Source of the DNA: Acidobacteriota bacterium
GTDB lineage: Bacteria; Acidobacteriota; Polarisedimenticolia; J045
Direction: 5' to 3'
Assembly (NCBI GenBank): GCA_030949985.1
Contig: JAUZRX010000023.1
Location: 186,001-250,000 of the forward strand
DNA: 64,000 nt
The notes beneath the pieces are model-generated. The model saw only the letters and a program-made list of their open reading frames with translations. It searched no databases and was not told where the DNA came from. Made by a program: the position numbers and the translations under genes. Numbering within the stretch: the stretch's first letter is position 1; every line of letters begins with the position of its first letter. This document shows positions 18,745-32,799 of the stretch, one piece after another.

Positions 18745-19309
18745 TCAGGCTCGGCAGGCCGAGGGCCTCCCGCCCGGAGCCCTGGACCAGGTCCGCCGCG
18801 TCCGCCGAGATCAGCACGACCCGGGGAAAGCCGTCGATGCGCGCATAGAACGCCGGCTTCAACGGCGAAGGCAATCCCACCTCGAGCCGCGCTTCCCGCG
18901 CACCCTCGCCTTCCCCGCCTTCGGGGGCGCTCAGCTGCGCCACCAGGGAAACGATGGGCTCCGCCAGGCCGTAGCGTTCGAGATCGTCCCCGGTGGGATG
19001 CTCGTCGACGCTCTCGACGAAGCGGATCCGGCTCCAGGCGCTCAGCAGGTCGGGAGCGAAGGTCACGTCGGCGCCCGGCGTGCCGGAAGCCACTTCCCAG
19101 CCCTCGGAACCGCGTCGAAAATGCACCTTCCCGCCGGGCTCCGAACGCAGCTCGAACTCGTAGTCCGTCACCCGGTAGGTGCCCCAGGGAAAGATCACCT
19201 CGGAGGGCTTGAGGACGCCCTCCTCCACGTCCCGGCGGCGTTCGCGGGCGACGAAGACCACCAGCAGGGCCAGGACGATCACCGCCGCCAGAACGCCCTT
19301 GCTGCGCAT
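18725..19309 (-). CDS. DUF4340-domain membrane-anchored protein
   Basis: A 194-residue protein with an N-terminal transmembrane helix (VLAAVIVLALLVVFVA, about 6-21) and one DUF4340 module (about 35-190; YEFELRSEPGGKVHFRRGSEGWEV, LLSAWSRIRFVESVDEHPTGDDLERYGLAEP). DUF4340 proteins commonly follow GldG-like ABC auxiliary subunits, as here: the start shares one base with the upstream stop (TGATG at 19309). Most relatives have two or three DUF4340 repeats, so this one is short. It is the last gene of the ABC operon. Its role in transport or envelope function is unproven. Confidence 0.8.
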   Translation of the reverse strand: MRSKGVLAAVIVLALLVVFVARERRRDVEEGVLKPSEVIFPWGTYRVTDYEFELRSEPGGKVHFRRGSEGWEVASGTPGADVTFAPDLLSAWSRIRFVESVDEHPTGDDLERYGLAEPIVSLVAQLSAPEGGEGEGAREARLEVGLPSPLKPAFYARIDGFPRVVLISADAADLVQGSGREALGLPSLISEPRR

Positions 19310-20895
19310 CAGCGGGTCCTCCGGAAGAACCAGACGATCCAGCCCACCAGGAAGATACCCAGCGCCTCGAGGACGACGATCATCCGCACCAGGCGGCGCT
19401 GGCCCGGCTCGATCTGCATCGCCAGCTTGGCCACCTTGGCCTCCCCCTGGCGGCGGATCAGCACTTCCTCCCCCGTCAGCCAGCGCACCAGGTTCATCGC
19501 CAGCTCCGAGTTGGACAGGGCATCGAAGAAATCGTCTTTCAGGAAGTCGGCGTCACCCACGACCACCATCCGCGCCACACGGCCCAGGTCACCGGGGTCA
19601 CGCTCGTCGGTGTACTTGCGGAAGGCCGCCACGGCCAGTACCGGTGGACGGTCCAGCCAGGGCTCGAGGGCCTGGGGGTCGATCTCCCGCACCCGTCCCG
19701 CCCGCTCCAGGTCACTCTCCACGTAGGTGCCACGGCCCGCGCGCAGCAGCACGTGGTGGAAGATCTGCTGATCGCTCATCACCTGCGAAAACTCGACGGG
19801 GCGGACCACGTTCATCAGCACGCGCTGCCCCTCGAGCCCCTGCACCGTCTCGTGCACACCGAAACGATCGGCGATCACCGTCAGAGGCTCGGGATAGTCC
19901 GCCAGCTTCGACTCGCGGGCATCGATCACCACCGCCGGCATCGCCCGGATGCCCCAGCGCTCGAGCAGTCCCGCCAGGGGGTGGGGCTGGCCGTCGGCCT
20001 GCTTGAAGTCCGCGTCGACCAGGGCCAGCAGGCGGCCTCCCGCCCGCAGGTAGGCGTCGTAGAGCGCGGTCTCCTTCTCGCCGACCGGACGCCGGGGATC
20101 GGCCAGCACCAGCAGCGAAGCGTCCCCGGGCACCGGCTCGCCCGGCCCGAGGGAGATCGTGCGTAACTGGAGGAAGTTCTTGGTCAGCTCGCTCTGCAGC
20201 CGCAGGTAGCCTTCCCCGCCCTGGGCGTCGACGCTCCTCTCCCCGTGCCCGATGACCCAGTAGACCACCTTGGGCTCGTCCCGGGCGACTTCCATCAACG
20301 CCGCGACCAGCTTGTCCTCGCCGTAACCCGGGAAATAGCTCACGCGCTCGCCGTACTTCACCACCGTCATCCGGTTGCCGCTGACACCGGCCTCGGACAA
20401 CAGGTCGGGCCGCTGGTTGGGATCCGCCATGGTCAGGTGGATCTTCGGCTGGTGAAAGACGAAGGTCCCGTAGAGTTCCTTGACCGCCCGGAACTCGAGG
20501 GCATTGCGTTCGGGGAAGAAAGCGTAGACGTCCACGTCGCCGCTGATCTTTTCGAGCACCCGCAAGGTGGCCGGGTGCAGCGAGAACGAACGGGTCCGTG
20601 TCAGGTCCCAGCGCTGGTGATAGCGGGCCGAGATGAAGTTGATCAGCAGCACGATCAACAGGCCGACCACCGCGGAGAGCAGGAAGCCGGCGCCGAAGCG
20701 CACCCGCTTGCCCCCGACCCGGTCGAAGAGAAAGGCCCGGCCGCCCCACAGGCCGGCGGCGGAAAGGAGGAGCCCCAGCCCGATCAGCGCCTGGTAGGCC
20801 ACCGGCATGACCCGCGACGCCATCACCCCCCAGCCCACCCCGACCACGAGAAGAGCCAGGCCGAACGGCCATGCCGCGTAGAGAAAGCGTTTCAT
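19309..20895 (-). CDS. GldG-like ABC-transporter auxiliary subunit
   Basis: A 528-residue membrane protein. Three hydrophobic helices occupy about residues 7-95 (FGLALLVVGVGWGVMASRV, LIGLGLLLSAAGLWGG, AVVGLLIVLLINFIS), a large periplasmic region with the ABC_transp_aux/GldG pattern follows (LTRTRSFSLHPATLRVLEKI, DVDVYAFFPERNALEFRAVK, YWVIGHGERSVD, LVLADPRRPVGEKETALYDAYLRAGGRLLALVD), and a last helix near the C terminus (VVLEALGIFLVGWIVWF). It works with the permease and ATPase encoded just upstream. In Bacteroidota the homologous GldAFG set is needed for gliding; outside that phylum the substrate is unknown. Four bases separate it from the permease gene. Confidence 0.87.
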   Translation of the reverse strand: MKRFLYAAWPFGLALLVVGVGWGVMASRVMPVAYQALIGLGLLLSAAGLWGGRAFLFDRVGGKRVRFGAGFLLSAVVGLLIVLLINFISARYHQRWDLTRTRSFSLHPATLRVLEKISGDVDVYAFFPERNALEFRAVKELYGTFVFHQPKIHLTMADPNQRPDLLSEAGVSGNRMTVVKYGERVSYFPGYGEDKLVAALMEVARDEPKVVYWVIGHGERSVDAQGGEGYLRLQSELTKNFLQLRTISLGPGEPVPGDASLLVLADPRRPVGEKETALYDAYLRAGGRLLALVDADFKQADGQPHPLAGLLERWGIRAMPAVVIDARESKLADYPEPLTVIADRFGVHETVQGLEGQRVLMNVVRPVEFSQVMSDQQIFHHVLLRAGRGTYVESDLERAGRVREIDPQALEPWLDRPPVLAVAAFRKYTDERDPGDLGRVARMVVVGDADFLKDDFFDALSNSELAMNLVRWLTGEEVLIRRQGEAKVAKLAMQIEPGQRRLVRMIVVLEALGIFLVGWIVWFFRRTR

Positions 20896-20899
20896 GCCC

Positions 20900-21661
20900 T
20901 CACCTCCACCGCTGGCTGTCGACGACCCGCGAGGTCAGATCGAGAACGAAGACGATCGCCGCGGCGAAGAAGACCAGCGGCTGGGTGTCGATCACGCCCC
21001 GGGCCAGCAGGTTGAGATTGGCCGAGGGGGTGAACTGCTCGAGATTTTCACCGATGAAGGGAATCTTCACCGCCAGCACACCGCCGAGATTGACCAGCGC
21101 GACCATCGCCAGGGCCAGGAAGGCCGCGATCATCGAGCTGTCGGTCAGGCTGGAGGCCAGCAGGCCCAGGGCCAGGAGCAGCGCACCGTAGAGAAACGCG
21201 CCGAGATAACCGCTGATCATCGGCGCGGGATCGATACGCCCCCAGGCGAGCAGCAGCGACGGCATCCAGGTGGTGATCAGCAGCATCACCGCCAGCACCG
21301 CGCAGGCCCCGAAGAACTTGCCCAACACCAGGTGCCGGGTCGTCATCGGCGCCGTCAGCAGCAGTTCGGCGGTGTGCTGTTTCTTCTCTTCGGCCAGCAG
21401 GCGCATGGTCAGCAGGGGAACGATCACCAGCAGCGTCCAGATCAGGTCCTGCCCGAGGAAGGAGCGCACGATCATCTCGCCGCCGGGCACCTCCATCAGG
21501 GGGTTCGACGCCGCCCGCAGGCGCAGGCTTTCGTACTGGCCGAGAGCCATGAAGAAGAGCACTCCCTGGAAGGCCACGAAGACGGCCATCGCCGTGTAGG
21601 CCAGGGGGGAAACGAAGTAGGACTTCAGTTCCCGGCGGAAGATCGCCCAGACGAAGTTCAT
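20900..21661 (-). CDS. ABC-2 type permease (GldF-like)
   Basis: A 253-residue integral membrane protein with six predicted helices, starting MNFVWAIFRRELKSYFVSPLAY, which is characteristic of GldF/NosY-type ABC-2 permeases. The EEKKQHTAELLLTAPMTTRHLVLGK segment is the typical cytosolic coupling region. The ATG at 21661 overlaps the ATPase stop by four bases, so the two are translationally coupled. With the ATPase and the GldG-like subunit it forms one transporter. Some of the open frame further upstream is antisense-free but out of family, so the shorter start is used. Confidence 0.9.
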   Translation of the reverse strand: MNFVWAIFRRELKSYFVSPLAYTAMAVFVAFQGVLFFMALGQYESLRLRAASNPLMEVPGGEMIVRSFLGQDLIWTLLVIVPLLTMRLLAEEKKQHTAELLLTAPMTTRHLVLGKFFGACAVLAVMLLITTWMPSLLLAWGRIDPAPMISGYLGAFLYGALLLALGLLASSLTDSSMIAAFLALAMVALVNLGGVLAVKIPFIGENLEQFTPSANLNLLARGVIDTQPLVFFAAAIVFVLDLTSRVVDSQRWR

Positions 21662-22659
21662 GGAGCCGCCTCCTCGAGGACCACGTCGCGAAAGACCTCT
21701 TCGAGGCTGGTGGTCTCCGAACGGACCTCGTACAGCCCCCAGCCGCTGGCGGCGAGGGCGGCCACGACGGCCTCCCGCCGCTCGGCGCCGGCTTCCAGTT
21801 CCAGGCGGAACAGCCCCTCGCCCTGGTCCTCGACACTCTCGACACCATCGAGGGCTTCGATGGCCTTCCCGTCGTCCGGTGGACGCCGCAAGCGCACCAG
21901 GACCCGTTTCTCGCCCCCGGTGGCGAGGATCTCGTCCATCCGACCGTCGGCCACCAGGCGACCACGGTTGATGATCACCACCCGCTCGCAGGTGGCCTGC
22001 ACCTCGGGGAGGATGTGGCTCGAGAGAATCACCGTCCGTTCCCGACCGATGTCGCGGATGATGCCGCGGATCTCCACCACCTGGGTCGGATCGAGACCGA
22101 CGGTGGGCTCGTCGAGAATCAGGATCCGCGGCTCGTGGATCACGGCCTGGGCCAGGCCGGTCCGCTGCCGGTAGCCCTTCGACAGGTTGCCCACCAGCCG
22201 CCGATGCACCTCCTGCAGGCCGCACAGCTCGATGGCCGCGTCCACCGCCGCCTGGCGCCGACGCCGGGGGATGCCGCGAATCTCGGCGGTGAAGGAAAGG
22301 TAGTCACGGACGATCATTTCCGGATAGAGCGGCGGGTGTTCGGGAAGGAAGCCGATGGCCCGTCGCACCTCTATCGGATCGTCCAGTACGTCGTGCCCAG
22401 CCACCCGCGCCGTCCCCGCGGTGGGCGGCACGAGGCCGGTCATGACTTTCATCGTCGTGGACTTGCCCGCGCCGTTGGGCCCGAGAAAACCGACCACCTC
22501 TCCTCGATAGACCGTAAACGAGATACCGCGCAGAGCCTCGAACTGTCCGTAGAGCTTGCGCAGACCGTCGATCTCGATCATCGGCACGTGGCCGCCGCGG
22601 GAGGAGACAGCGCCCGCACCTTCCCCACCGAGCCCGCCCGTGGTCGGCGTGAGTGGCAT
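21658..22659 (-). CDS. ABC transporter ATPase (GldA-like)
   Basis: A 333-residue ATP-binding subunit. Walker A GFLGPNGAGKSTTMK, Q-loop region RAIGFLPEHPPLYPEM, signature NLSKGYRQRTGLAQA, Walker B ILILDEPTVGLDP and H-loop ILSSHILPEVQ are all intact. Residues after about 245 form the C-terminal domain of GldA-type ATPases. Two starts are possible: ATG at 22659 (AGGGG 7 bases upstream) or ATG at 22581, which gives the family-typical MIEIDGLRKLYG; the 26 extra residues are Gly/Pro-rich and unconserved in character. It is first in an operon with the permease, GldG-like and DUF4340 genes, driven by a promoter at 22744-22772 and a structured leader. Confidence 0.92.
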   Translation of the reverse strand: MPLTPTTGGLGGEGAGAVSSRGGHVPMIEIDGLRKLYGQFEALRGISFTVYRGEVVGFLGPNGAGKSTTMKVMTGLVPPTAGTARVAGHDVLDDPIEVRRAIGFLPEHPPLYPEMIVRDYLSFTAEIRGIPRRRRQAAVDAAIELCGLQEVHRRLVGNLSKGYRQRTGLAQAVIHEPRILILDEPTVGLDPTQVVEIRGIIRDIGRERTVILSSHILPEVQATCERVVIINRGRLVADGRMDEILATGGEKRVLVRLRRPPDDGKAIEALDGVESVEDQGEGLFRLELEAGAERREAVVAALAASGWGLYEVRSETTSLEEVFRDVVLEEAAP

Positions 22660-23556: not shown

Positions 23557-24588
23557 TCACCGGCTCCCGCCACCGCTCCCCCGTCGCCACCGGAGGTATC
23601 GCCGTACCGCCCGCTGGTGGTCGGCCAGGTTGCGCGAAAAGACGTGACCCCCGTCGCCACCGGCGACGAAGAACAGCTCGCCCCGCCGCTCCGGCCGCAA
23701 GGCCGCCTGGAGGCTCTCGAGGCCGGGCGAGGCGATGGGCCCCGGGGGCAGGCCGGCCCGGGTGTAGGTGTTGTAGGGATGATCCCAGGCCAGGTCCCGG
23801 CGGCGGATGTCGCCATCCCAGCGGCCCGCCCGCCGCAGGGCGTAGATCACCGTGGGATCGCACTGCAGGCGCATGTGGCGCGCCAGGCGCTCGACGAAGA
23901 CCCCGGCGATGCGTGAGCGTTCGTCCCGTCGGGCGGTTTCCCGCTCGACCAGCGACGCCAGGGTCACCAGTTCGCGCAGGTCGAGGGAGGCGCCGGCGAT
24001 CTCGTCGGCGTAGACCTCCACGAAACGTTTGCGGAAGGTGCCCACCAGTTCCGCCGCCACCTTCCGCGGGTCGTAGTTCCGGGGAAAGGAGTAGGTCTCG
24101 GGGAAGAGGTAACCCTCGAGGTCCGTCGCCCTCGGATCGAGATCGGCGATGGCCGCGGGGGAGGAGAAGGCCGCCAGCAGGCCGCCGGCCCCGGCCACCC
24201 CCGCCTGGGCCAAAAGCGCCGCCGTCTGGTGCAGGTCGAGTCCCTCGGGCACGGTCACCCTGAGCGGGACGATCCGCCCCTCGCCGAGGATGCGAATCAC
24301 TTCGGAAGGCGCCAGGGGAGGCTCGAAACGGTACTCTCCAGCGTGGATCCTGTGCTGCACACCCAGCAGCCGCATCGCCCGCGAAAGGGCCCAGGCGGGG
24401 CGCACCACGCCCCGCTCCTCGAGGGCCCGAGCCACCTCGGCGGCACTGGCGCCCGGCTCGACGGTGATGCCGACCGGGGCCGCGCCGGGCTCTCCCTGGG
24501 GCAAGTGGAGGAAGAGCGCGGTTCCGGCCGCCGCGACGACAGCCAGCGCGACAACCACCGCCGCGACCGGCAGAAGGCGGACCTTCAT
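23557..24588 (-). CDS. mltG: Endolytic murein transglycosylase MltG
   Basis: MltG cleaves nascent glycan strands in the inner-membrane-facing periplasm and sets their length. The 343-residue protein has an N-terminal membrane anchor (VAAVVVALAVVAAAGTALFL), a LysM-like region (VEPGASAAEVARALEERGVV), and the YceG domain with GYLFPETYSFPR, the catalytic segment TLASLVERET (Glu215 expected to be catalytic), QCDPTVIYAL and YNTYTRAGLPPGPIASPG. Length is typical. Its start overlaps the ruvX stop (ATGA), a conserved gene pair in many bacteria. Confidence 0.95.
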   Translation of the reverse strand: MKVRLLPVAAVVVALAVVAAAGTALFLHLPQGEPGAAPVGITVEPGASAAEVARALEERGVVRPAWALSRAMRLLGVQHRIHAGEYRFEPPLAPSEVIRILGEGRIVPLRVTVPEGLDLHQTAALLAQAGVAGAGGLLAAFSSPAAIADLDPRATDLEGYLFPETYSFPRNYDPRKVAAELVGTFRKRFVEVYADEIAGASLDLRELVTLASLVERETARRDERSRIAGVFVERLARHMRLQCDPTVIYALRRAGRWDGDIRRRDLAWDHPYNTYTRAGLPPGPIASPGLESLQAALRPERRGELFFVAGGDGGHVFSRNLADHQRAVRRYLRWRRGSGGGSR

Positions 24589-25016
24589 CGCCCATCACCC
24601 CCGAGCGCGCGACGATCGAGAAACCCCTGGAGGATCAGCGTCGCCGCCAGCTTGTCGATCACTTTGCGCCGCTTGCGACGGGACACGTCCCCTTCGAGCA
24701 GGGCCCGCTCGGCGGCCACCGTCGTCAGGCGCTCGTCCCAGCGATGCACCCTGACTCCGAAGCGCGCCTCGAGCGCCGCGGCGAGCTTTTCGGAAGCCTC
24801 GCTCATCGCGCCGGGAGTGCCGTCGAGATCGAGGGGCAGGCCGATCACCACCTCCCGGATCTCACGTTCACCGAGCACCTCGCCGAGGGCGGCCAGGTCG
24901 GCGCGAAAAGAGCGCCGCTGAAGGGTCTTGAGGGGGAGCGCCACCGTCTGCCCCGCGTCACTGACCGCCAGCCCGAGGGTTTTCGTACCCACGTCGATGC
25001 CCAGTATCTGCCCCAT
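24585..25016 (-). CDS. ruvX: RuvX/YqgF-family nuclease-like protein
   Basis: YqgF/RuvX has an RNase H-like fold and takes part in 16S rRNA 5'-end processing in Escherichia coli; a Holliday junction resolvase role has also been proposed. The 143-residue product has the family motifs: GIDVGTKTLGLAVSD with the first catalytic Asp, EVVIGLPLDLDG, and DERLTTVAAERALLEGD with the Glu/Arg signature, ending in a helix with DKLAATLILQGFLD (final Asp of the active site). The ATG at 25016 gives the normal N terminus MGQILGID. It is coupled to mltG by a four-base overlap. Confidence 0.93.
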   Translation of the reverse strand: MGQILGIDVGTKTLGLAVSDAGQTVALPLKTLQRRSFRADLAALGEVLGEREIREVVIGLPLDLDGTPGAMSEASEKLAAALEARFGVRVHRWDERLTTVAAERALLEGDVSRRKRRKVIDKLAATLILQGFLDRRALGGDGR

Positions 25017-25079
25017 GAGTCCATTGTCCTGCTTTTTTCCGGGGGCCACCAACCGGCGGCCGACGCTCCGCACCGCGGC

Positions 25080-28000
25080 TCAGAAAGCCTCGCCGATGGA
25101 GAGGACGAAGCGACCGGGCGATTCCCCTTGCCGGCGGTCGAGCTTGAAGCCGTATTCGATCCGCAGCGCTCCCACCGGCGTGTTGTAGCGCAGGCCCAGT
25201 CCCGCCGCCCGGCGCAGGTCTCCCGGATCGAAGCCACCCGTGTCGAGCCACACGTTGCCCGCATCGACGAAGAGCACCAGCAGCAGATCGCGCCACAGGG
25301 GGGCCCGCGCCTCCAGGTTGAGCACCAGCGACGCCTCCCCCCCCAGGGGCTCACCGCCGGGACCGTCGAGGGGGCCGACCAGGTCGCGGCCGAATCCACG
25401 CAGGCTCGATGCGCCCCCGGCGAACAGGCGCTCGGAGAGGGGGATGCCGGAAGTGCCGGCGAAAGGCCACTCGAAACCGACCCGCAAGCTGCCGGCCAGC
25501 ACCCTTCCCTTGCCCAGACCCCGGTAGAGCGCCCCCTGGCCGCGCCAGCGCAGGAAGCTGGCCTCCGAGCCCAGGGGGCGGGCGAAGATCCCCACGTCGC
25601 TGCGCACGATGCCGCCGCGGGTCGGCAGGAAGGGGTCGTTGCGCCGATCCAGGCTCCAGGTCAGCCCCACCGAACCCAGTCGCACCGGCTCGAGCCGCCC
25701 CCTTTCGGCCTGGAGTTCCCCCTCGAGAGCCGCGGGATCGAGGTTCACGTCGGTGAAGCGGTTCGCACTCAAGGCGTAGATCCACTGCCAACGATGGTCC
25801 CGGCGGGCCGTCGAACCGATCTGGAGGGCGATGCCGGTGCTGCTGACGGTAAAGCCTTCCCGCTGTTCCCGCTGCATGTCGAAGCTGAGCAACCCCTCGA
25901 GACGGTCACGAAAGATGCGGGGCTGCTCGAAAGTCAGACGCCCTCCCCGCCGTCGCGCGGTGGCGAAGGCCTGCACCGATGCGCGGCGTCCCTTGCCGCC
26001 CACGTTGTCGTGGGAGAGGGTCACGCTGCTGCCGAATTGCTCCTCCGTGTCGTAGCCCGCCGTCAACCGCAGGGCCAGCGCAGGCGTCTCGCGCACGCGC
26101 AACACCACCCGCCGCCACCCGGGCTCGCCCTCCACCGCTTCGTGAGTCACTTCCACGTCGCGGAACAGGCCCGTGCGGAAGAGTTCCCGTTCGAGGGCGC
26201 GCAGGCGCTCACCGCTGACGGGATCGCCCCGGCGCAGGTCGACGTAGCGCTGCACCAGCTTGCGGCTGGTGCGCTCGAGGCCCTCGTAGCCGATCCCGGC
26301 CACCCGGGCGCGCTCGCCGCTGCGCACGAGAAAGGTCACGTCCACCTTGTCGCCGTCGAGCCGGCTCCGGCTCGAGACCCGTGCCCGGTAGTACCCGGCC
26401 CGGTCCAGACGCCTGCGCAGCTCGAGCAGGTCGGCGTCGAGCAGGGAGGGCAGGAAGGGCCTGCCGGGAACGAGGTCCAGTCCGTCGGTCGCCGGACCGA
26501 GTGCGGCGGGCCAGTCGCCGCTGACCTGGACCCTTCCGGTGAGCGCCGGTTCGCCCTCCTCGATGCGGAAGAGCAGGTCCACCGCCTGACCGGAGGTGTG
26601 AAAGAGGGCCTTCTGCTCCACCCGCACCCCGAGAAAACCCTTTTGCTCGTAAAGACTCTGGACGGCGATCCGGTCCTCCTCCGCCAGGCGCGGCCGATAG
26701 ATCCGCCGGCGCGGTCCGGTCAGGGCGGGCGAAGGCCGCGAGAGAATCTGCGCCAGCACTTCCTCGGTGGAGAGCGCCGACACGCCCTCGAGCACGACCC
26801 GCTCCACCACGACCCGCGGACCGGGATCGACCTCGAGCAGCAGGCTGTGGCTTTCGGGAGGCTCGCGGGTCAGACGCACCACCGCCACCGCCCGCCCCTC
26901 GTCGGCGAGCCGTTCGCGCAACACCCGCTCGGCTTCCCGCAGGGCCGCCACGCGGAACTCCGTCTCGCTCCACAGCCCCGTCAGGACCTCGCGGGCCGCA
27001 CGCACCGCCCGGGCGGGCCCCTGCCCCGCCAGCGTCCATCGCGGCCCGGGATCCACCCGTACCACCAGCCGCTCCCGCCCGGCCGCCTTCTCCCGCCGGG
27101 AGTCGAGCCGGGCCTGGATGTAACCGGCTTCCACCAGCGCCCGCCTGACGCGATCCTGGACGTCCAGCACGGCCGCCCGGGTCAGGGCGCCCCGACTCAG
27201 CCGGCGCGGGTCGAGCCGCCGGGTGCGCCGGAGAGCCTCCGGCCATCCCTCGATCACCACCTGCCAGCGCCCGTCCGCCCCCCTGCCGTCGCTGCCCGCC
27301 GCGCCACCACCTCCGCCGAAGCGGGTCAGCCAACTCACTCCCGCCCCCAAGCCGCCGAGGATGTTCTGTCCCACCTCGAGACGCATCCGCCGGCCGAGAT
27401 CCCGTTCGATCCGGTAGACGTCCCGCCCCGCCCCCGAGAGATCACGGGAATAGAGCACATAAGTCTGCTCGTCGATCCGGCGGCCCAGGGTGACCCGGGC
27501 GGTGGGCGAGGTGCGGGAGTCGACCTGGGCCGGAGAGATGCGAAAGTGCGAGACGCCCAGCCACCGGCGAGCCGGCCCGGAGAGCAGCAGTTCACCGAGC
27601 TTGGTGCCGAAATAGGCGCCCGCCAGGTCCGCGGGATCGCCGCCGCCCGTCCCGCCGCCCGCGTCCCCGGGCGCCTGCCCGGTCAGCAGCAGGAGGAGGA
27701 TGTCCCGCGAGGCCAGGGCCGGTGCCGAGGTCAAGCGGTAGTCCAGATCTTCCGGCGAGGCGTCCAGGTCGAGCTGGATGCGGTAGCCCCTCAGTTCGGT
27801 CTGGGCCCGCAGGCGCAAGGTGACGGGCTCGCCCCGGGCATCGTCGAAGAGCAGTTGCCCGGAGAGCAGTTCGTAGTTCACGTCCCGAAAGCTCAGGCGA
27901 CCTCCGTCGAGGAGGTTGACCTGTCCGGAGAGCAGGGGCCGGGCCATGGTGCCACCCACCTGGATCCGCAGTCCGGCTCCGGCCAGGGCCATCGAGTTGC

Positions 28001-31000
28001 GGATCGTCAGCGAATCCTCGGCCACCAGGGAGAGGTCCAGCCCGACCCGCGAGAGCCAGGACGAGAACGGCGAGCCCGGATCCACCAGCCGGGTCCGCCC
28101 GGAGAGGGGATCGAGAAAATCGAATTCCCGGCCGTAGCGCCCCGCCAGCAAGGTGGCCCCACCGGCCAGGGTCAGGGATTCGAGAGGCCCGGAAAGCTCC
28201 AGCGACGCATCGTAGCGCCCCCACAGACCCCGGGGAAAACTCAGGGCCACGTCCCGCGCCTCCACCGCCAGATCCAGGTGATTCGGCTGCCAGTGGTCGA
28301 TCTCCAGGCCACCTTCGAAACGCACCTCCCCGCCGCCCAGTCGGCAGCGCGCCCCGGCCAGGCGCAGGCTGCGGTCTTCGGCGATCACCTCGCCGTCGAT
28401 GGCCTCGAGAGTCACCCCCGTGCTCAACCAGCGGGCCCGGCCGCCTTCCACCCGCAGGCGACCGGCAAAACGGGGGTTGGCCGCCGCGCCCACGACCTTT
28501 CCCTCCCCCTCGAGGCGGCCGGCCGCCACCATGTCCGGGGCGAGGATCTCGAGCAGCCCCAGCTCCGCGTCGCCCCCGAAAGCCAGGTCCAGCTCGGCCC
28601 CCCGCGCCCCCCCCAGGTGCACCGCGCCGGAAAGCTGGAAACGCCCGGAGGGGTAGCCCTCGAAAACCAGCGGTCGGGACCCGGGCAGGACCAGGGTCCG
28701 ACCGGAGCGGTACTCCAGGCCCGCCGGCTCGACCAGGCTCGCACTGTAGGACGGCCCCAGCAGGTCCAGGCGCTCGACGCGCCCCTCGCCGACCCAGTTC
28801 CGGGGTTCGGCCAGGGGCCCGGCGACGCGGATCCAACCATCGCTCCAGGCGCCGAGCCCCAGCTCCAGCGGCCGCCGCAAGCGCGCTTCGACCAGTTGCA
28901 GGAGTTCCAGGTCGCGCCACTTCAACTCGAGGTCGAAGTCCGGCGCCTTCAGCCGGCCGCCGAGCCGTGCCACCGCGTCGAGGGCGGCGACGGTGGCATC
29001 CACCCGGACGCCCCCCCCGGCCAGGGGCTCGTTCCGCGCGCTGCTATCGGGAACGCTGACGTCGGCCACCTCGCGGCCTTCCCAGCCCACCCAGCCCAAA
29101 GCGCCCCAGCCCTCCGCCCCCCACGCCACCTCCTCGCGCAGGGCCACCCGACCGCGCCGGACCCTCTCGAGTCCCAGTTCCGCGGGCAGGCGGGAGAGGT
29201 CGGCATCCAGTTCCACCCGCCCCCGGGCCTCGACCGGCCACGGATCCGGGCCGTCGGCCAGCAGCACTCCGCCGGCCAGGCGCCCCCTCAACGAGCCCCA
29301 GCGCCCCTGCGAGCGGCGCACTTCCAGCCGCGCCCCGGACCAGCGGCCCTCGGCCTCGAGCGTAAAGGGCGTACCCAGCGGGGACCAGCCTTCCACGGAT
29401 CCAGCGAAGTCCAACTCCGCCCCGCCCGCGGGCGACCAGCTTCCCGCCAGAGCCAGCGCCGCCCGCCCGCCCAGTCCCGCCGGCCAGGAGGAGGGTTCGA
29501 GCAGAGGCTCGGCCAGGGCCAGCGGCACCTCCCGCCCCTGAACCTCGAGCCGCCATACCTCGCCGCCGGCGGCCCGGCGGGCCTCGAAGAGCAGGCCGCG
29601 GCCATCGGCCAGGGCCAGGCGGCCCGTCACCGCCAGCGGCCCGGCGGCGTCCTGCTGCCGCAGCCGCAGGGCGAGCCGGTCGAAGCGGGCCCGGGAGTAG
29701 CCCGGCCCCTCGATCACCACCTCGCCGTCGAGGAGATCGATCCGCTCCCCGCGGCCCGCCGCCGTGAGCGCCAGGGCCAGCCCCCGGTGCGGGACGGGAA
29801 CCAGCAGCGCGGGCCAGGTCCCGCCGCGGGACTCGAAGACTTCCCGGGCGACTTCCAGCGCTTCACCGGCCGACGCCGAATCGGGGGCCTCGACATCCAG
29901 GTCCAGGTTCCACGACCGCCGCGCCGCGGGCCCCGACCAGGCCACCCGTGTGCGGACCCGCCGCGCGCCCCAGTCACCGTCGTAGGACAGCTGCCCCCCG
30001 TCCCCCGCCAGGGCCACGTCGAACTTCCCGTCCAGCGCTCTCGAACTCCCCGCGCCGACCACCCGCCCCCAGGCCTCCAGGGCGGGGGCCTGCCCGTCGC
30101 GCAGCCGGCCCCGCAGGAGGAGATCCCCCTCTCCGGAAGCCAGCGCCGGATCGAGCCCCAGCCGCCGGGCCCACTCCGCCGTCCGGACCCGCAGAGGGCC
30201 TTCCACCGTCCAGCCCCCCTCCTCCCGCTCGATCCGCAGTCCGTCCAGGCGGGTCCCCCCCGGGCTGCGCCCGGCCACCCGATCGACCCGCACCTGGTCC
30301 GGCTCGAGATGGATCCGGCCCTCGAGGGCCTCCCAGTCGAGCCCGGCCAGGCGCAGCGGGCCGAGGGCGCGGAAATCACCGTCCACTACCCACGGGCCGG
30401 GCAACTCCCCGCTGAAGGCGAGCTGGGACTCGATCCATCCCTCCGCCTCCGGGTCGTCGGCGATCCACCGCTCGAGGGCCACGCTCACCGTCGCGCCTCC
30501 GGAGAGCAGCCAGCGCCCATCGGCCCACTTGAGCGACGCCGACGCCCCGGCGCGGGTGGCCCCGTCGGCGACGAAGATCCGTTGCAGATGCAGCCGCCCC
30601 CGGTTCCACGACAGGCGCGCCGAGACCCGCCGCACCTCCACGGGCGGGCGATCACCCACGGTGATCGTCCCCGGGCCTGCGGCGGCGCTTCCACGCACCT
30701 CGCCGTCATGGCCGGCCAGGTTCAACTCCAGGCCTTCGAAATCCAGTTCGAAGGGCCAGCGGCCGCGGGCGGTGAGCAGTTCGCCTCCCTCCACGGTGAC
30801 CCGTTCGAGGGCGGAGAGCAGCGCGGGGTCGAAGTCCGGGGGCTCGCCCCCCCCCTCGCCGGGCCCCACCTCGAGAACCAGGCCGCGCACCGCGATGGTC
30901 ACCGGACGCACCTCTCCCCGCAGCAGGGGCGGCAGGGCCAGGCCCAGTTCGAGACGTCCGACCCGCAAGCCGCGCAAAAACCCCGGCGCGTCGGCGAAGA

Positions 31001-31226
31001 CCAGTCCGTCGACCGTCACCGTCCCTTCGAGAGGGTGCAGCCGGGCGGCGGCGACCTGCACGTCGACGCCGACCTTCCCGGCGACCGCCGCGGCGATCCT
31101 GCGCGCCAGCCAGCGCTGCCCGGGGGGCCCCAGGCCGACCACCCCGGCGACGGCGACCAGCAGCGGGAGGGAGACGAGCAACAGGTGGCGGCGCGAGAAA
31201 CTTCGACCGCCCCCGGCAGGAGTCAC
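25080..31226 (-). CDS. TamB-TamA fusion: inner-membrane-anchored AsmA/TamB protein joined to an Omp85-type outer-membrane barrel
   Basis: A single 2048-residue frame with no stop. It starts with an inner-membrane anchor (LLLVSLPLLVAVAGVVGLG, about 14-35) and a very long beta-rich TamB-type region (about 36-1300), including the C-terminal TamB/DUF490 features (NSMALAGAGLRIQVGGTMARP, SGQVNLLDGGRLSFRDVNYE, YFGTKLGELLLSG). A Gly/Ala/Asp-rich linker (about 1303-1318) leads to four POTRA-like modules (about 1320-1710; VVVERVVLEGVSALSTEEVL, ARVAGIGYEGLERTSRKLV) and a 16-stranded-type barrel (about 1715-2048) with the Omp85 RGF motif SLRGFGRD. TamA and TamB are normally separate partners in outer-membrane protein assembly or lipid transport. 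The GTG at 31226 overlaps the rlmI-like stop (GTGA). Confidence 0.88.
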   Translation of the reverse strand: MTPAGGGRSFSRRHLLLVSLPLLVAVAGVVGLGPPGQRWLARRIAAAVAGKVGVDVQVAAARLHPLEGTVTVDGLVFADAPGFLRGLRVGRLELGLALPPLLRGEVRPVTIAVRGLVLEVGPGEGGGEPPDFDPALLSALERVTVEGGELLTARGRWPFELDFEGLELNLAGHDGEVRGSAAAGPGTITVGDRPPVEVRRVSARLSWNRGRLHLQRIFVADGATRAGASASLKWADGRWLLSGGATVSVALERWIADDPEAEGWIESQLAFSGELPGPWVVDGDFRALGPLRLAGLDWEALEGRIHLEPDQVRVDRVAGRSPGGTRLDGLRIEREEGGWTVEGPLRVRTAEWARRLGLDPALASGEGDLLLRGRLRDGQAPALEAWGRVVGAGSSRALDGKFDVALAGDGGQLSYDGDWGARRVRTRVAWSGPAARRSWNLDLDVEAPDSASAGEALEVAREVFESRGGTWPALLVPVPHRGLALALTAAGRGERIDLLDGEVVIEGPGYSRARFDRLALRLRQQDAAGPLAVTGRLALADGRGLLFEARRAAGGEVWRLEVQGREVPLALAEPLLEPSSWPAGLGGRAALALAGSWSPAGGAELDFAGSVEGWSPLGTPFTLEAEGRWSGARLEVRRSQGRWGSLRGRLAGGVLLADGPDPWPVEARGRVELDADLSRLPAELGLERVRRGRVALREEVAWGAEGWGALGWVGWEGREVADVSVPDSSARNEPLAGGGVRVDATVAALDAVARLGGRLKAPDFDLELKWRDLELLQLVEARLRRPLELGLGAWSDGWIRVAGPLAEPRNWVGEGRVERLDLLGPSYSASLVEPAGLEYRSGRTLVLPGSRPLVFEGYPSGRFQLSGAVHLGGARGAELDLAFGGDAELGLLEILAPDMVAAGRLEGEGKVVGAAANPRFAGRLRVEGGRARWLSTGVTLEAIDGEVIAEDRSLRLAGARCRLGGGEVRFEGGLEIDHWQPNHLDLAVEARDVALSFPRGLWGRYDASLELSGPLESLTLAGGATLLAGRYGREFDFLDPLSGRTRLVDPGSPFSSWLSRVGLDLSLVAEDSLTIRNSMALAGAGLRIQVGGTMARPLLSGQVNLLDGGRLSFRDVNYELLSGQLLFDDARGEPVTLRLRAQTELRGYRIQLDLDASPEDLDYRLTSAPALASRDILLLLLTGQAPGDAGGGTGGGDPADLAGAYFGTKLGELLLSGPARRWLGVSHFRISPAQVDSRTSPTARVTLGRRIDEQTYVLYSRDLSGAGRDVYRIERDLGRRMRLEVGQNILGGLGAGVSWLTRFGGGGGAAGSDGRGADGRWQVVIEGWPEALRRTRRLDPRRLSRGALTRAAVLDVQDRVRRALVEAGYIQARLDSRREKAAGRERLVVRVDPGPRWTLAGQGPARAVRAAREVLTGLWSETEFRVAALREAERVLRERLADEGRAVAVVRLTREPPESHSLLLEVDPGPRVVVERVVLEGVSALSTEEVLAQILSRPSPALTGPRRRIYRPRLAEEDRIAVQSLYEQKGFLGVRVEQKALFHTSGQAVDLLFRIEEGEPALTGRVQVSGDWPAALGPATDGLDLVPGRPFLPSLLDADLLELRRRLDRAGYYRARVSSRSRLDGDKVDVTFLVRSGERARVAGIGYEGLERTSRKLVQRYVDLRRGDPVSGERLRALERELFRTGLFRDVEVTHEAVEGEPGWRRVVLRVRETPALALRLTAGYDTEEQFGSSVTLSHDNVGGKGRRASVQAFATARRRGGRLTFEQPRIFRDRLEGLLSFDMQREQREGFTVSSTGIALQIGSTARRDHRWQWIYALSANRFTDVNLDPAALEGELQAERGRLEPVRLGSVGLTWSLDRRNDPFLPTRGGIVRSDVGIFARPLGSEASFLRWRGQGALYRGLGKGRVLAGSLRVGFEWPFAGTSGIPLSERLFAGGASSLRGFGRDLVGPLDGPGGEPLGGEASLVLNLEARAPLWRDLLLVLFVDAGNVWLDTGGFDPGDLRRAAGLGLRYNTPVGALRIEYGFKLDRRQGESPGRFVLSIGEAF

Positions 31227-32398
31227 GACTCCGCCCTCCGCTCGAGGAGCAGGCCGCGCAGATAGCGGCTCTCCGGCACTTCGAGCGCTTCCGGGTGGTC
31301 CGGCGCCGGCCCCGGACGACCCAGCACCGCCAGGCGCACGCCGGCCTCCTCCGCCCCTGCGCGGACGGCCGACTCGAAGGCTTCCTGGCTGACCGCAAAC
31401 GAACACGAGAAGGTCAGCAGCCGCCCCCCTGGAACCAGCCGCCGCAGGGCCCGCCGATGCAGGTCCCTCAGTCCTTTCAGCCCCCCGGCCAGGGCCTTGC
31501 GATGGCGCGCGAAGGGGGGGGGATCGAGAACGATGCCGTCGAAACACCGGTCACGGCGATCGGCGTCCGCGAGGAAATCGAAGACGTTGGCCTCGAGCCA
31601 CTCGATGCGCCGGTCGAGACCCGCCGCCAAGGCGGCCCTGTCGGCCCGATCCAGTCCGGCCCGGGCCTGGTCCACCGCCACCACCCGGGATCCGGCGGCC
31701 GCCAGCGGCAGGGCGAAGCCCCCTTCGCCGCAGAAGAGGTCGAGCACGCGGCCGCGGATCCAGCGCGACGCGGCCCGGTGGTTCTCCTGCTGGTCGAGAT
31801 AGAGCCCGGTCTTGTGCCCCCGCCGGGGCGAGACGATGCGGAGCTGGCCGGCCTCGTCCACGACGATCTCGTCGGGAACCATCCCTTCCACCGCGTCGAC
31901 ACCGGTCTCCAGCCCCTCCCGCCGACGCACATCCACGTCGTTGCGGGCCAGGATCCAGCGGCACCCGAGGCGGCGGCCGAGAAACGAGACGATCTCCGGC
32001 GCCGCCCGATCGGCCCAGGCGGTGGTGGCCTGGAAGACCAGGCCCTCGCCGTAGCGGTCGACGGTCAGCCCGGGAAACCCGTCGGCGTCGGCGTGGACCA
32101 GGCGCCGGCAAGGCCCCAGGCCCACCTGGCGCCTCCGGGCCAGGGCCGCCTCGGCCCGCTCGATCCAAAAGGCCGATCCCGTTTCGGTGCCCGCCGGCGC
32201 CACGCGGCGCAGGGCGATGCGGGAAGTGGAAGAGTAGACCGCCCGGGCCAGGCAGGCGCCCCCGCGATCGCGCACGTCGACCACCTGGCCGGAGACCGCC
32301 TCGGCCCGCACCACGTCGTCGGAGAAGATCCAGGGGTGGCCTCTCCTCGCCCTTCGGGCTCCCCGTCCGTTCACCATCACGAAGGCGCCCGGTTTCAC
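31223..32398 (-). CDS. RlmI/RlmK-family class I rRNA methyltransferase (PUA domain, m5C type)
   Basis: A 391-residue protein. The N terminus is a PUA RNA-binding domain (MVNGRGARRARRGHPWIFSDD, about 8-80), then a linker domain (GFPGLTVDRYGEGLVFQ), then a methyltransferase core with motif I VLDLFCGEGGFALPLA, motif IV IVLDPPPFARHRKALAGG and a catalytic-Cys segment LLTFSCSFAVS as in RlmI, which makes m5C1962 in 23S rRNA. The start could be GTG at 32398 (VKPGAFVMVNG) or ATG at 32377; the longer one is given because it preserves the short N-terminal strand. It lies 11 bases after the DksA/TraR stop and overlaps the TamBA start by four bases, so the three form one operon. Confidence 0.88.
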   Translation of the reverse strand: MKPGAFVMVNGRGARRARRGHPWIFSDDVVRAEAVSGQVVDVRDRGGACLARAVYSSTSRIALRRVAPAGTETGSAFWIERAEAALARRRQVGLGPCRRLVHADADGFPGLTVDRYGEGLVFQATTAWADRAAPEIVSFLGRRLGCRWILARNDVDVRRREGLETGVDAVEGMVPDEIVVDEAGQLRIVSPRRGHKTGLYLDQQENHRAASRWIRGRVLDLFCGEGGFALPLAAAGSRVVAVDQARAGLDRADRAALAAGLDRRIEWLEANVFDFLADADRRDRCFDGIVLDPPPFARHRKALAGGLKGLRDLHRRALRRLVPGGRLLTFSCSFAVSQEAFESAVRAGAEEAGVRLAVLGRPGPAPDHPEALEVPESRYLRGLLLERRAES

Positions 32399-32409
32399 CG
32401 CCGGTCGCC

Positions 32410-32799
32410 CTATCGAGGAGTGCGTGGGGTCACGATGGCGCCATCGGGGGGGGACTCCTGTTCGACCTTCTCCTGGCAGCGGATACAGTACTCGGCCCAG
32501 GGTACGGCCTTCAGGCGGGCGGAGCCGATCTTCTCGCCGCACATCTCGCACTCGCCGTAGCTGCCGTCCTCGATGCGCTCGAGGGCGTCCTCGATCATGG
32601 CCAGCCGCTTCTGCTCGAGAGAGGAGAGCGAGAGCAGGAACTCGCGGGTGTAATTCGTCACGGCGTCGTCGACATAATCCTCGCCACCCTGGATGACCGT
32701 GCTGCGGCCTTCCCCCGCGATGCGGGCGGCCTTGTCGACAACCTCAGCGCGCCGTTCTTCGAGCAGTTTGCGGTAGCGATCCAGTTCGCGTTTTCTCAT
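32410..32799 (-). CDS. DksA/TraR-family zinc-finger transcription regulator
   Basis: DksA binds in the RNA polymerase secondary channel and works with ppGpp. This 129-residue protein has a coiled-coil (about 1-75) with the tip motif DYVDDA, which fits DxxDxA of true DksA (Asp41, Asp44, Ala46), and a four-Cys zinc finger CEMC-x17-CIRC (Cys84, 87, 105, 108). Length is slightly below E. coli DksA (151). The Asp pair suggests it can act on transcription initiation. It is the first gene of an operon with rlmI-like and TamBA genes, with a promoter 68 bases upstream. Confidence 0.88.
   Translation of the reverse strand: MRKRELDRYRKLLEERRAEVVDKAARIAGEGRSTVIQGGEDYVDDAVTNYTREFLLSLSSLEQKRLAMIEDALERIEDGSYGECEMCGEKIGSARLKAVPWAEYCIRCQEKVEQESPPDGAIVTPRTPR

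Follow-up and report, generated by a model that had tools for sequence, protein, structure and literature searches.

The translocation and assembly module (TAM) of Proteobacteria, reportedly described by Selkrig in 2012, consists of TamA and TamB. Current models treat these as separate proteins that come together across the periplasm, where the free C-terminal strand of TamB enters the gate of the TamA barrel. The parts of the system are an anchor, a beta-taco groove, a TamB C-terminal domain of two helices and six strands, and an Omp85 protein with POTRAs and a 16-strand barrel; the free C-terminus of TamB pairs with strand 1 of that barrel (PMC12800296). In Acidobacteria, TamB was linked genetically to a second BamA-like Omp85, proposed as the origin of TamA, in a report that describes two-gene operons and in which the words 'fusion' and 'fused' are absent (Heinz et al. 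2015, PMC4494059). In two further systems, the hybrid BAM-TAM of Borrelia (PMC11361582, PMC13382580) and the TamL-TamB pair of Bacteroidota (PMC12045153), TamB works with an Omp85 that resembles BamA or TamA but differs from classical TamA.

We analyzed a 64,000-nucleotide stretch of Acidobacteriota DNA (the window) in which TamB and an Omp85 protein are encoded by a single frame of 2048 codons (Table 1). The chain has the parts of the Proteobacterial TAM in the order inner-membrane anchor, beta-groove, TamB C-terminal domain, linker, five POTRAs and Omp85 barrel, the anchor, groove and POTRA count being predicted. It differs from that system in being one frame with five POTRAs rather than two separate binding proteins with three, in having no free TamB end, and in placing the TamB part first and the Omp85 part second, whereas the E. 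coli gene order is tamA-tamB. The pairing of TamB with such an Omp85 is as in Borrelia and Bacteroidota, but there the two are separate proteins. Single-chain bridges from inner to outer membrane have already been reported. The elongated MlaD of Veillonella parvula, as predicted for the fusion, has its inner-membrane anchor in one chain with a beta-barrel of the outer membrane and is a proposed periplasmic lipid bridge; unlike the fusion, it is an MCE hexamer of unrelated fold with a helical stalk, a ten-strand barrel and a proposed retrograde direction (PMC10665443). No natural TamA-TamB or TamB-Omp85 fusion was found in the literature searched, which took in no bioRxiv preprints and few subscription papers.

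Table 1. Features of the fusion gene and its neighbours (coordinates are those of the window; residues are those of the 2048-aa chain).
Feature	Coordinates	Strand	Basis
TamB-Omp85 fusion gene coding for one chain of 2048 aa from a GTG start	25080..31226	minus	ORF and Pfam matches
Predicted signal anchor of the inner membrane, a hydrophobic N-terminal helix (residues 14-31)	31134..31187	minus	hydropathy, AF2 helix
Strongly amphipathic beta-groove with a strand count of 63, about residues 57-1168	27723..31058	minus	AF2 models, alternation test
Pfam TamB (PF04357), residues 964-1303, through final profile position	27318..28337	minus	E 6.7e-23
C-terminal domain of TamB, residues 1173-1303, with helices ahead of six strands, final strand 1293-1303	27318..27710	minus	AF2 model, alignment
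Linker, residues 1304-1321, GGGGGAAGSDGRGADGRW	27264..27317	minus	AF2 pLDDT, relatives
POTRA 1, residues 1322-1392, divergent	27051..27263	minus	AF2 secondary structure
POTRA 2, residues 1398-1467	26826..27035	minus	AF2 model
POTRA 3, residues 1473-1556	26559..26810	minus	AF2 model
POTRA 4, residues 1562-1635	26322..26543	minus	Pfam, AF2 model
POTRA 5, residues 1641-1713	26088..26306	minus	AF2 model
16-strand Omp85 barrel, residues 1717-2045, chain terminus SIGEAF	25092..26078	minus	Pfam, AF2, Foldseek
RGF motif of Omp85 loop 6, residues 1943-1945	25392..25400	minus	sequence
RlmI-like rRNA methyltransferase, upstream neighbour, not machine part	31223..32551	minus	NCBIfam 278.5 bits, under curated cut-off
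DksA-family gene, upstream neighbour	32410..32799	minus	profile match
RuvX/YqgF, downstream neighbour	24585..25073	minus	profile match
MltG, downstream neighbour	23557..24588	minus	profile match

The fusion gene runs without interruption from its GTG at 31226 to a stop at 25080, and there are no Ns in the window. The GTG shares 4 nt with the stop of the preceding gene (GTGA), and GGAGG lies 8 nt 5' of it. The plus strand over the locus is also open, for 2173 aa, so the length of the frame is by itself no proof of coding. We assign coding to the minus strand because of the Pfam matches of its product (TamB, E 6.7e-23; POTRA, three stretches, E 1.6e-25; Omp85, residues 1741-2048, E 1.8e-43) and the pattern of substitutions by codon position. 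Compared with a same-genus genome, codon positions 1, 2 and 3 differ at 8, 5 and 37% in the TamB end and at 13, 9 and 41% in the Omp85 part. Both halves of the fusion are under purifying selection. The initial annotation had read the frame as a TamB-type groove continued by an Omp85 with POTRAs and barrel, and this is borne out by profile matches in both halves. It had also regarded the DksA and rRNA methyltransferase neighbours as unusual; that neighbourhood is conserved across the family and in much of the class, and is therefore not unusual.

The N-terminal half has the characteristics of the TamB family. Its PF04357 score (82.0 bits) exceeds the cut-off of 22.4, and it is predicted to have the single N-terminal membrane helix and long amphipathic groove of that family. 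Hydropathy peaks at 2.51 in the N-terminal helix (window at residue 15); in the rest of the chain no window exceeds 1.35, a value reached in the barrel at residue 1981. The groove strands are amphipathic by an alternation test (z 9.5 against shuffles; z 0 in loops), and relatives have Pfam matches to AsmA, YhdP and DUF748. The TamB C-terminal region named in the initial annotation is present, with the helices and six beta-strands by which the domain is defined (PMC12800296). It aligns with E. coli TamB and with split Acidobacteriota TamBs, the latter stopping at the point that corresponds to residue 1303. The half scores below the cut-off for the Proteobacterial TamB equivalog (NF047952, 8.8 vs 825 bits). 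A profile search of the source genome found no further PF04357 match.

The repeating strands and helix that form the hydrophobic groove of bridge-like lipid carriers are likewise predicted in the fusion. Structural matches of the N-terminal half are weak: an N-terminal fragment of Vps13 (probability 0.93, E 0.07), the N-terminal part of Atg2 (Z 7.2) and, among the best solved structures, ApoB100 (Z 11.1, rmsd 8.8). A VIA-align list for this half was set aside as evidence of kinship, consisting mostly of barrels at large rmsd; it had no TamB entry, and that absence was not counted as evidence either. Both parts of the chain modeled well in AF2. The models cover the chain in two overlapping stretches, lack a pair-error map and describe each part rather than the placement of groove, POTRAs and barrel relative to each other.

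The two halves are joined by 18 residues, most with pLDDT below 50. The linker, at first placed at about 1303-1318, spans residues 1304-1321 according to the AF2 model and the relatives. Its sequence and length vary among relatives, and the distance between the profile ends is 17-36 residues in nearly all fusions. A linker that is disordered and variable would be accessible to proteases, and the whole chain might be made and then cut there, giving an ordinary two-protein TAM at a fixed ratio. We consider such a cut quite unlikely: the hydropathy scan has no hydrophobic stretch ahead of the linker for a signal-peptidase site, and no motif common to the linkers of the fusions is visible. The joint also bears on whether a separate Omp85 could arise as a second translation product. 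In-frame GTG codons at residues 1322-1324 could in principle serve as internal starts, but no start codon with a Shine-Dalgarno sequence (5-of-6 match) was found near the joint in the source gene or in most fusions, and an Omp85 started there would lack a signal peptide and would be stuck in the cytoplasm. A second product of this kind is highly improbable.

The C-terminal half belongs to the Omp85 superfamily (PF01103, 149.7 bits vs a cut-off of 24), with barrel, POTRAs and the expected RGF motif all present; R1943 and G1944 are invariant across 23 of 23 fusions. About four POTRAs had been proposed; the AF2 model gives five, the first of which has a weak match to POTRA_TamA_1 (residues 1355-1393, under the cut-off). 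The initial annotation's TamA-type C terminus was correct as to a POTRA-barrel Omp85, but not as to TamA identity: for the TamA equivalog (NF047950), which has a cut-off of 625 bits, the half scores 97.6, and it has five POTRAs rather than three. A strong match to PF17243 was found for a TamA-type gene in a relative (G010). The score of the half for the BamA equivalog (TIGR03303) is also below the cut-off (262.3 vs 297.15 bits). In a quick Omp85 tree rooted on two BamAs, the fusion belongs to a clade of 57 Acidobacteriota rows (95%) that stands next to the E. coli TamA group and not within it. Judged by its sequence, the C-terminal half is a TamB-associated Omp85 of an Acidobacteriota lineage beside TamA, for which the label TamA is approximate.

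The likeness to BamA raises the alternative of an outer-membrane insertase that has five POTRAs and is tied to the inner membrane, with the groove a passive spacer and no lipid path. The top profile score of the half is to BamA (262 bits), as are the best Foldseek matches (barrel to BamA, E 4e-42; to TamA, E 1e-32), and the five POTRAs fit. However, the strong amphipathicity of the groove strands (z 9.5) is what shielding of lipid would call for, and the genome already encodes a separate canonical BamA (877 aa, 429 bits to TIGR03303). It seems unlikely that the chain is only such an insertase.

The fusion recurs in related genomes. Among 41 genomes sampled from the class, 37 had a detectable TamB part, and in 30 of these TamB and Omp85 lie in one open frame; two of the 30 are single-contig genomes, and these genomes are N-free at the fusion locus. 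TamB, POTRA and Omp85 Pfam matches were present in all 23 relatives scanned. Outside the class, there were at least 18 N-free fusions in many other Acidobacteriota families. One genome that looked fused (L098) contains 447 Ns and was left out of the count. All genomes compared were Acidobacteriota, and the counts speak for that phylum only. A scan of named genomes with the whole protein gave zero matches, a family-alignment search gave matches in five metagenome assemblies, all Acidobacteriota, and a plasmid search gave no site with at least 80% query coverage. Such a wide occurrence, throughout the class and in many further families of the phylum, suggests that the joined gene is real and inherited. 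The source assembly is a metagenome-type draft of 133 contigs, in which two genes might have been united by an assembly or sequencing artefact. Given the identical frame in the 30 class genomes and the fusions outside the class, this is barely conceivable, and recurrence in relatives rules out an assembly error near 27300. An apparently split gene in a same-genus genome proved to be a 10-N scaffold gap.

Elsewhere in Acidobacteriota, tamB and omp85 are often neighbouring and frequently overlapping separate genes, and the C-terminus of the split TamB is the exact point at which the fused chain passes into the linker. Most simply, the fusion would have arisen when a tamB gene lost its stop and read on into the omp85 gene next to it, the linker taking the place of the Omp85 signal peptide. 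A single origin of all fusions is ruled out by the Omp85 tree (p-AU 4e-50). That tree and the TamB tree, in which a contig-edge row (L040) was scored as split, each require several changes between fused and split, which may have been gains or losses.

We think the fusion is probably a covalent TAM, in which the groove carries lipid to an Omp85 anchor. The chain would physically span both membranes. Its N-terminal helix would remain in the inner membrane, the barrel would be put into the outer membrane by the separate BamA of the cell, and phospholipid would travel outward along the hydrophobic groove, the outer end of which would be held by the POTRAs and barrel; these might also aid insertion of outer-membrane proteins. 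The putative substrate, whether lipid, protein or both, is taken over by analogy from E. coli. There is precedent for the function in the TamAB hybrid barrel and in phospholipid inside the TamB cavity (PMC12800296). Covalent joining would fix a 1:1 stoichiometry, and the halves would not need to find each other. The terminal strand of TamB is retained without a free C-terminus, so that any pairing with the barrel gate would have to take place within reach of the 18-residue linker or between adjacent molecules.

It is quite possible, and we propose tentatively, that fusion (or splitting) of TamB and its Omp85 partner took place repeatedly within Acidobacteriota and that the uncut chain serves as a permanent single-molecule bridge for lipid between both membranes. 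If so, the retained TamB strand, with no free end, would act as a tethered gate of the barrel. This bears directly on the question of whether the hybrid barrel of TamA and TamB has to come apart and form again with every cycle. The fusion offers a test of the need for a free TamB end, and the length of the linker limits the possible arrangement of the parts. As one purifiable protein, it would be suited to structural study of lipid transport from the inner to the outer membrane. A natural, conserved single-chain form, with stoichiometry and topology fixed, supports direct coupling of TamB to Omp85 across the phylum.

The fusion gene opens with a GTG in a 4-base overlap with the upstream methyltransferase gene's stop, and GGAGG stands 8 bases ahead of it. 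At over 70% G+C, frame length alone is weak evidence, because the opposite strand is also open there for 2173 residues (plus strand, 24744-31265), an antisense frame that arises as a mirror frame at high G+C and does not represent a gene. That the fusion is coding is shown by homology and third-position substitutions. The TamB profile (PF04357) matched residues 964-1303 (E 6.7e-23) and reached its last position, POTRA matched at E 1.6e-25, and Omp85 matched residues 1741-2048 (E 1.8e-43). Compared with a genome of the same genus, both halves differed mainly at third codon positions. The single uninterrupted TamB, POTRA and Omp85 frame described in the initial annotation is real.

A search of the 3.7-Mb draft source genome for another tamB found the fusion as the sole PF04357 match. 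There were four Omp85 matches, one of which is a canonical BamA of 877 residues that has five POTRA hits and scores 429 bits (BamA cut-off, 297). In 41 genomes sampled from the class Polarisedimenticolia, the TamB part was detectable in 37, and 30 of these have TamB and Omp85 in one open frame. Two genomes with the fusion are assembled as a single contig each, and their loci contain no N. An assembly join, which had been a concern, is ruled out by this recurrence. All three profiles matched in each of the 23 fused proteins scanned. Among the seven genomes not counted as fused, the locus is broken by a 10-N scaffold gap in G001 and appears to end at contig ends in G005, G028 and G035; G036, G006 and G017 are the others. 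Every named relative found was an Acidobacteriota metagenome assembly.

Across the phylum, TamB was present in 216 of 247 sampled genomes, and fully read loci were either fused or split into separate genes. In many families, tamB is followed by a close-by, often overlapping, omp85 of 850-1000 residues (for example, loci L067, L069, L073, L074, L077, L103, L104 and L108). The fused state was found in about a dozen families outside the class, where 18 fused frames are N-free. Split TamBs terminate at the last strand of the TamB C-terminal domain, typically in ...RRF, and fused chains align with them to that point and then run on into a polar linker; therefore, the joint is the site of the stop in relatives. 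The signal peptide of the Omp85 partner is absent from the fused chain. By profile ends, linkers span 17-36 residues; family f34 is the exception, its fusions (L096, L099) carrying roughly 205 more residues at the joint that resemble additional POTRA-type sequence. The f34 fusions sit apart from the main fused clades in trees and are likely a separate fusion event. Placing all fusions in one clade was rejected on the Omp85 tree (p-AU 4e-50), so fusion and/or fission occurred more than once. One genome, G048, has a fused copy and a split pair (L068, L069) near each other in trees, possibly from fusion or fission after duplication. In G003 (CP070706.1, labelled a chromosome), a second Omp85 frame (L111:6982-9702) opens with TamB C-terminal strands after an N-filled gap, and is probably a second fusion cut by this scaffold gap.

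The C-terminal half had been called TamA/Omp85; the Omp85 assignment stood and TamA did not. Foldseek placed BamA first (E 4e-42; TamA, 1e-32), and VIA-align gave a tie (TamA, Z 21.7 over 525 residues, rmsd 7.3; BamA, Z 21.2 over 633 residues, rmsd 8.0). Scores were below both equivalog cut-offs (TamA, 97.6 vs 625; BamA, 262.3 vs 297). In a quick Omp85 tree rooted on two BamAs, the TamB-linked Acidobacteriota proteins formed one clade (95%), apart from both and adjoining the group with E. coli TamA. Consistent with this, Heinz et al. 2015 (PMC4494059) grouped TamA with a second BamA of Acidobacteria, the putative source of TamA. The name adopted here for the C-terminal half is TamB-partner Omp85 (with five POTRAs) instead of TamA. 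The Omp85 proteins of loci L072 and L063 lie near E. coli TamA, outside the main clade; in L072, omp85 precedes tamB. In addition to its own fusion, G010 has a proteobacterial-type pair (contig C102, L045:1355-7011): a 585-residue TamA-type Omp85 with a strong POTRA_TamA_1 match and an overlapping 1518-residue TamB frame. The pair groups with E. coli TamA and TamB, and reflects horizontal transfer or contamination (3% estimated).

Structure models covered residues 1-1000 (pLDDT 84, pTM 0.57) and 900-2048 (pLDDT 78, pTM 0.65). Groove strands alternate hydrophobic and polar residues far above chance (z 9.5; loops, 0). The modelled TamB C-terminal domain agrees with that defined by cryo-EM (PMC12800296). 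Each POTRA unit is beta-alpha-alpha-beta-beta; five were modelled instead of the roughly four proposed initially. A flexible linker was also predicted, with limits differing from the earlier estimate (about 1303-1318).

Features of the fusion gene, its product and its neighbourhood
Feature	Location	Strand	Details
Fusion gene	GTG 31226 to stop 25080	-	2048 residues
Gene order		-	PPDK, PhoH, DksA, RlmI-like, fusion, RuvX, MltG
Anchor helix	residues 14-31		model
Second helix	residues 34-52		model
Groove			about 63 strands, short helices at intervals; model
TamB C-terminal domain	residues 1173-1303		helices then six strands; model
Linker	residues 1304-1321		pLDDT mostly <50
POTRA 1	residues 1322-1392		model
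POTRA 2	residues 1398-1467		model
POTRA 3	residues 1473-1556		model
POTRA 4	residues 1562-1635		model
POTRA 5	residues 1641-1713		model
Omp85 barrel	after POTRA 5		16 strands; model

The DksA and methyltransferase neighbours, initially considered unusual, are not: in most of the family, and also in several further families of the class, DksA immediately precedes the fusion gene, and PPDK, PhoH or RlmI lies nearby. RuvX and MltG come directly after the fusion in most of the family. This gene arrangement is conserved and offers no particular clue to function. Near the fusion operon is a gliding-type ABC cluster (minus strand, 19309-22659), with a GldA-like ATPase (343 bits, under its cut-off) followed by permease-type and GldG-like frames.

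Directly supported for the fusion are its sequence, conservation and predicted folds. In E. coli, the TamB cavity contains phospholipid and the last TamB strand pairs with TamA barrel strand 1 (PMC12800296); established E. coli work places TamB strands 3-6 inside the barrel. By analogy, the fusion would act as TamA and TamB do, its two partners being fixed to each other. The groove should be long enough to span the periplasm, because E. coli TamB, of similar length, was modelled at 17.8-24.6 nm (PMC11014939). Crosslinks place the E. coli TamB end close to where barrel strand 1 of TamA begins, and therefore the 18-residue linker of the fusion (about 6 nm fully stretched) must reach from that point to the far end of the five-POTRA arm. 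The arm may curl, pairing may occur between molecules, or the hybrid barrel may be unused.

A natural TamB-Omp85 fusion did not turn up in the literature searched, an absence that is no proof that it is undescribed. Elongated MlaD, like the fusion (by prediction), is reported to combine in one chain an anchor in the inner membrane and a barrel in the outer membrane (PMC10665443), so the principle of a single-chain bridge is known. The version built from the translocation and assembly module appears to be new, and the constraint that linker reach places on pairing of the TamB end with the barrel is new.
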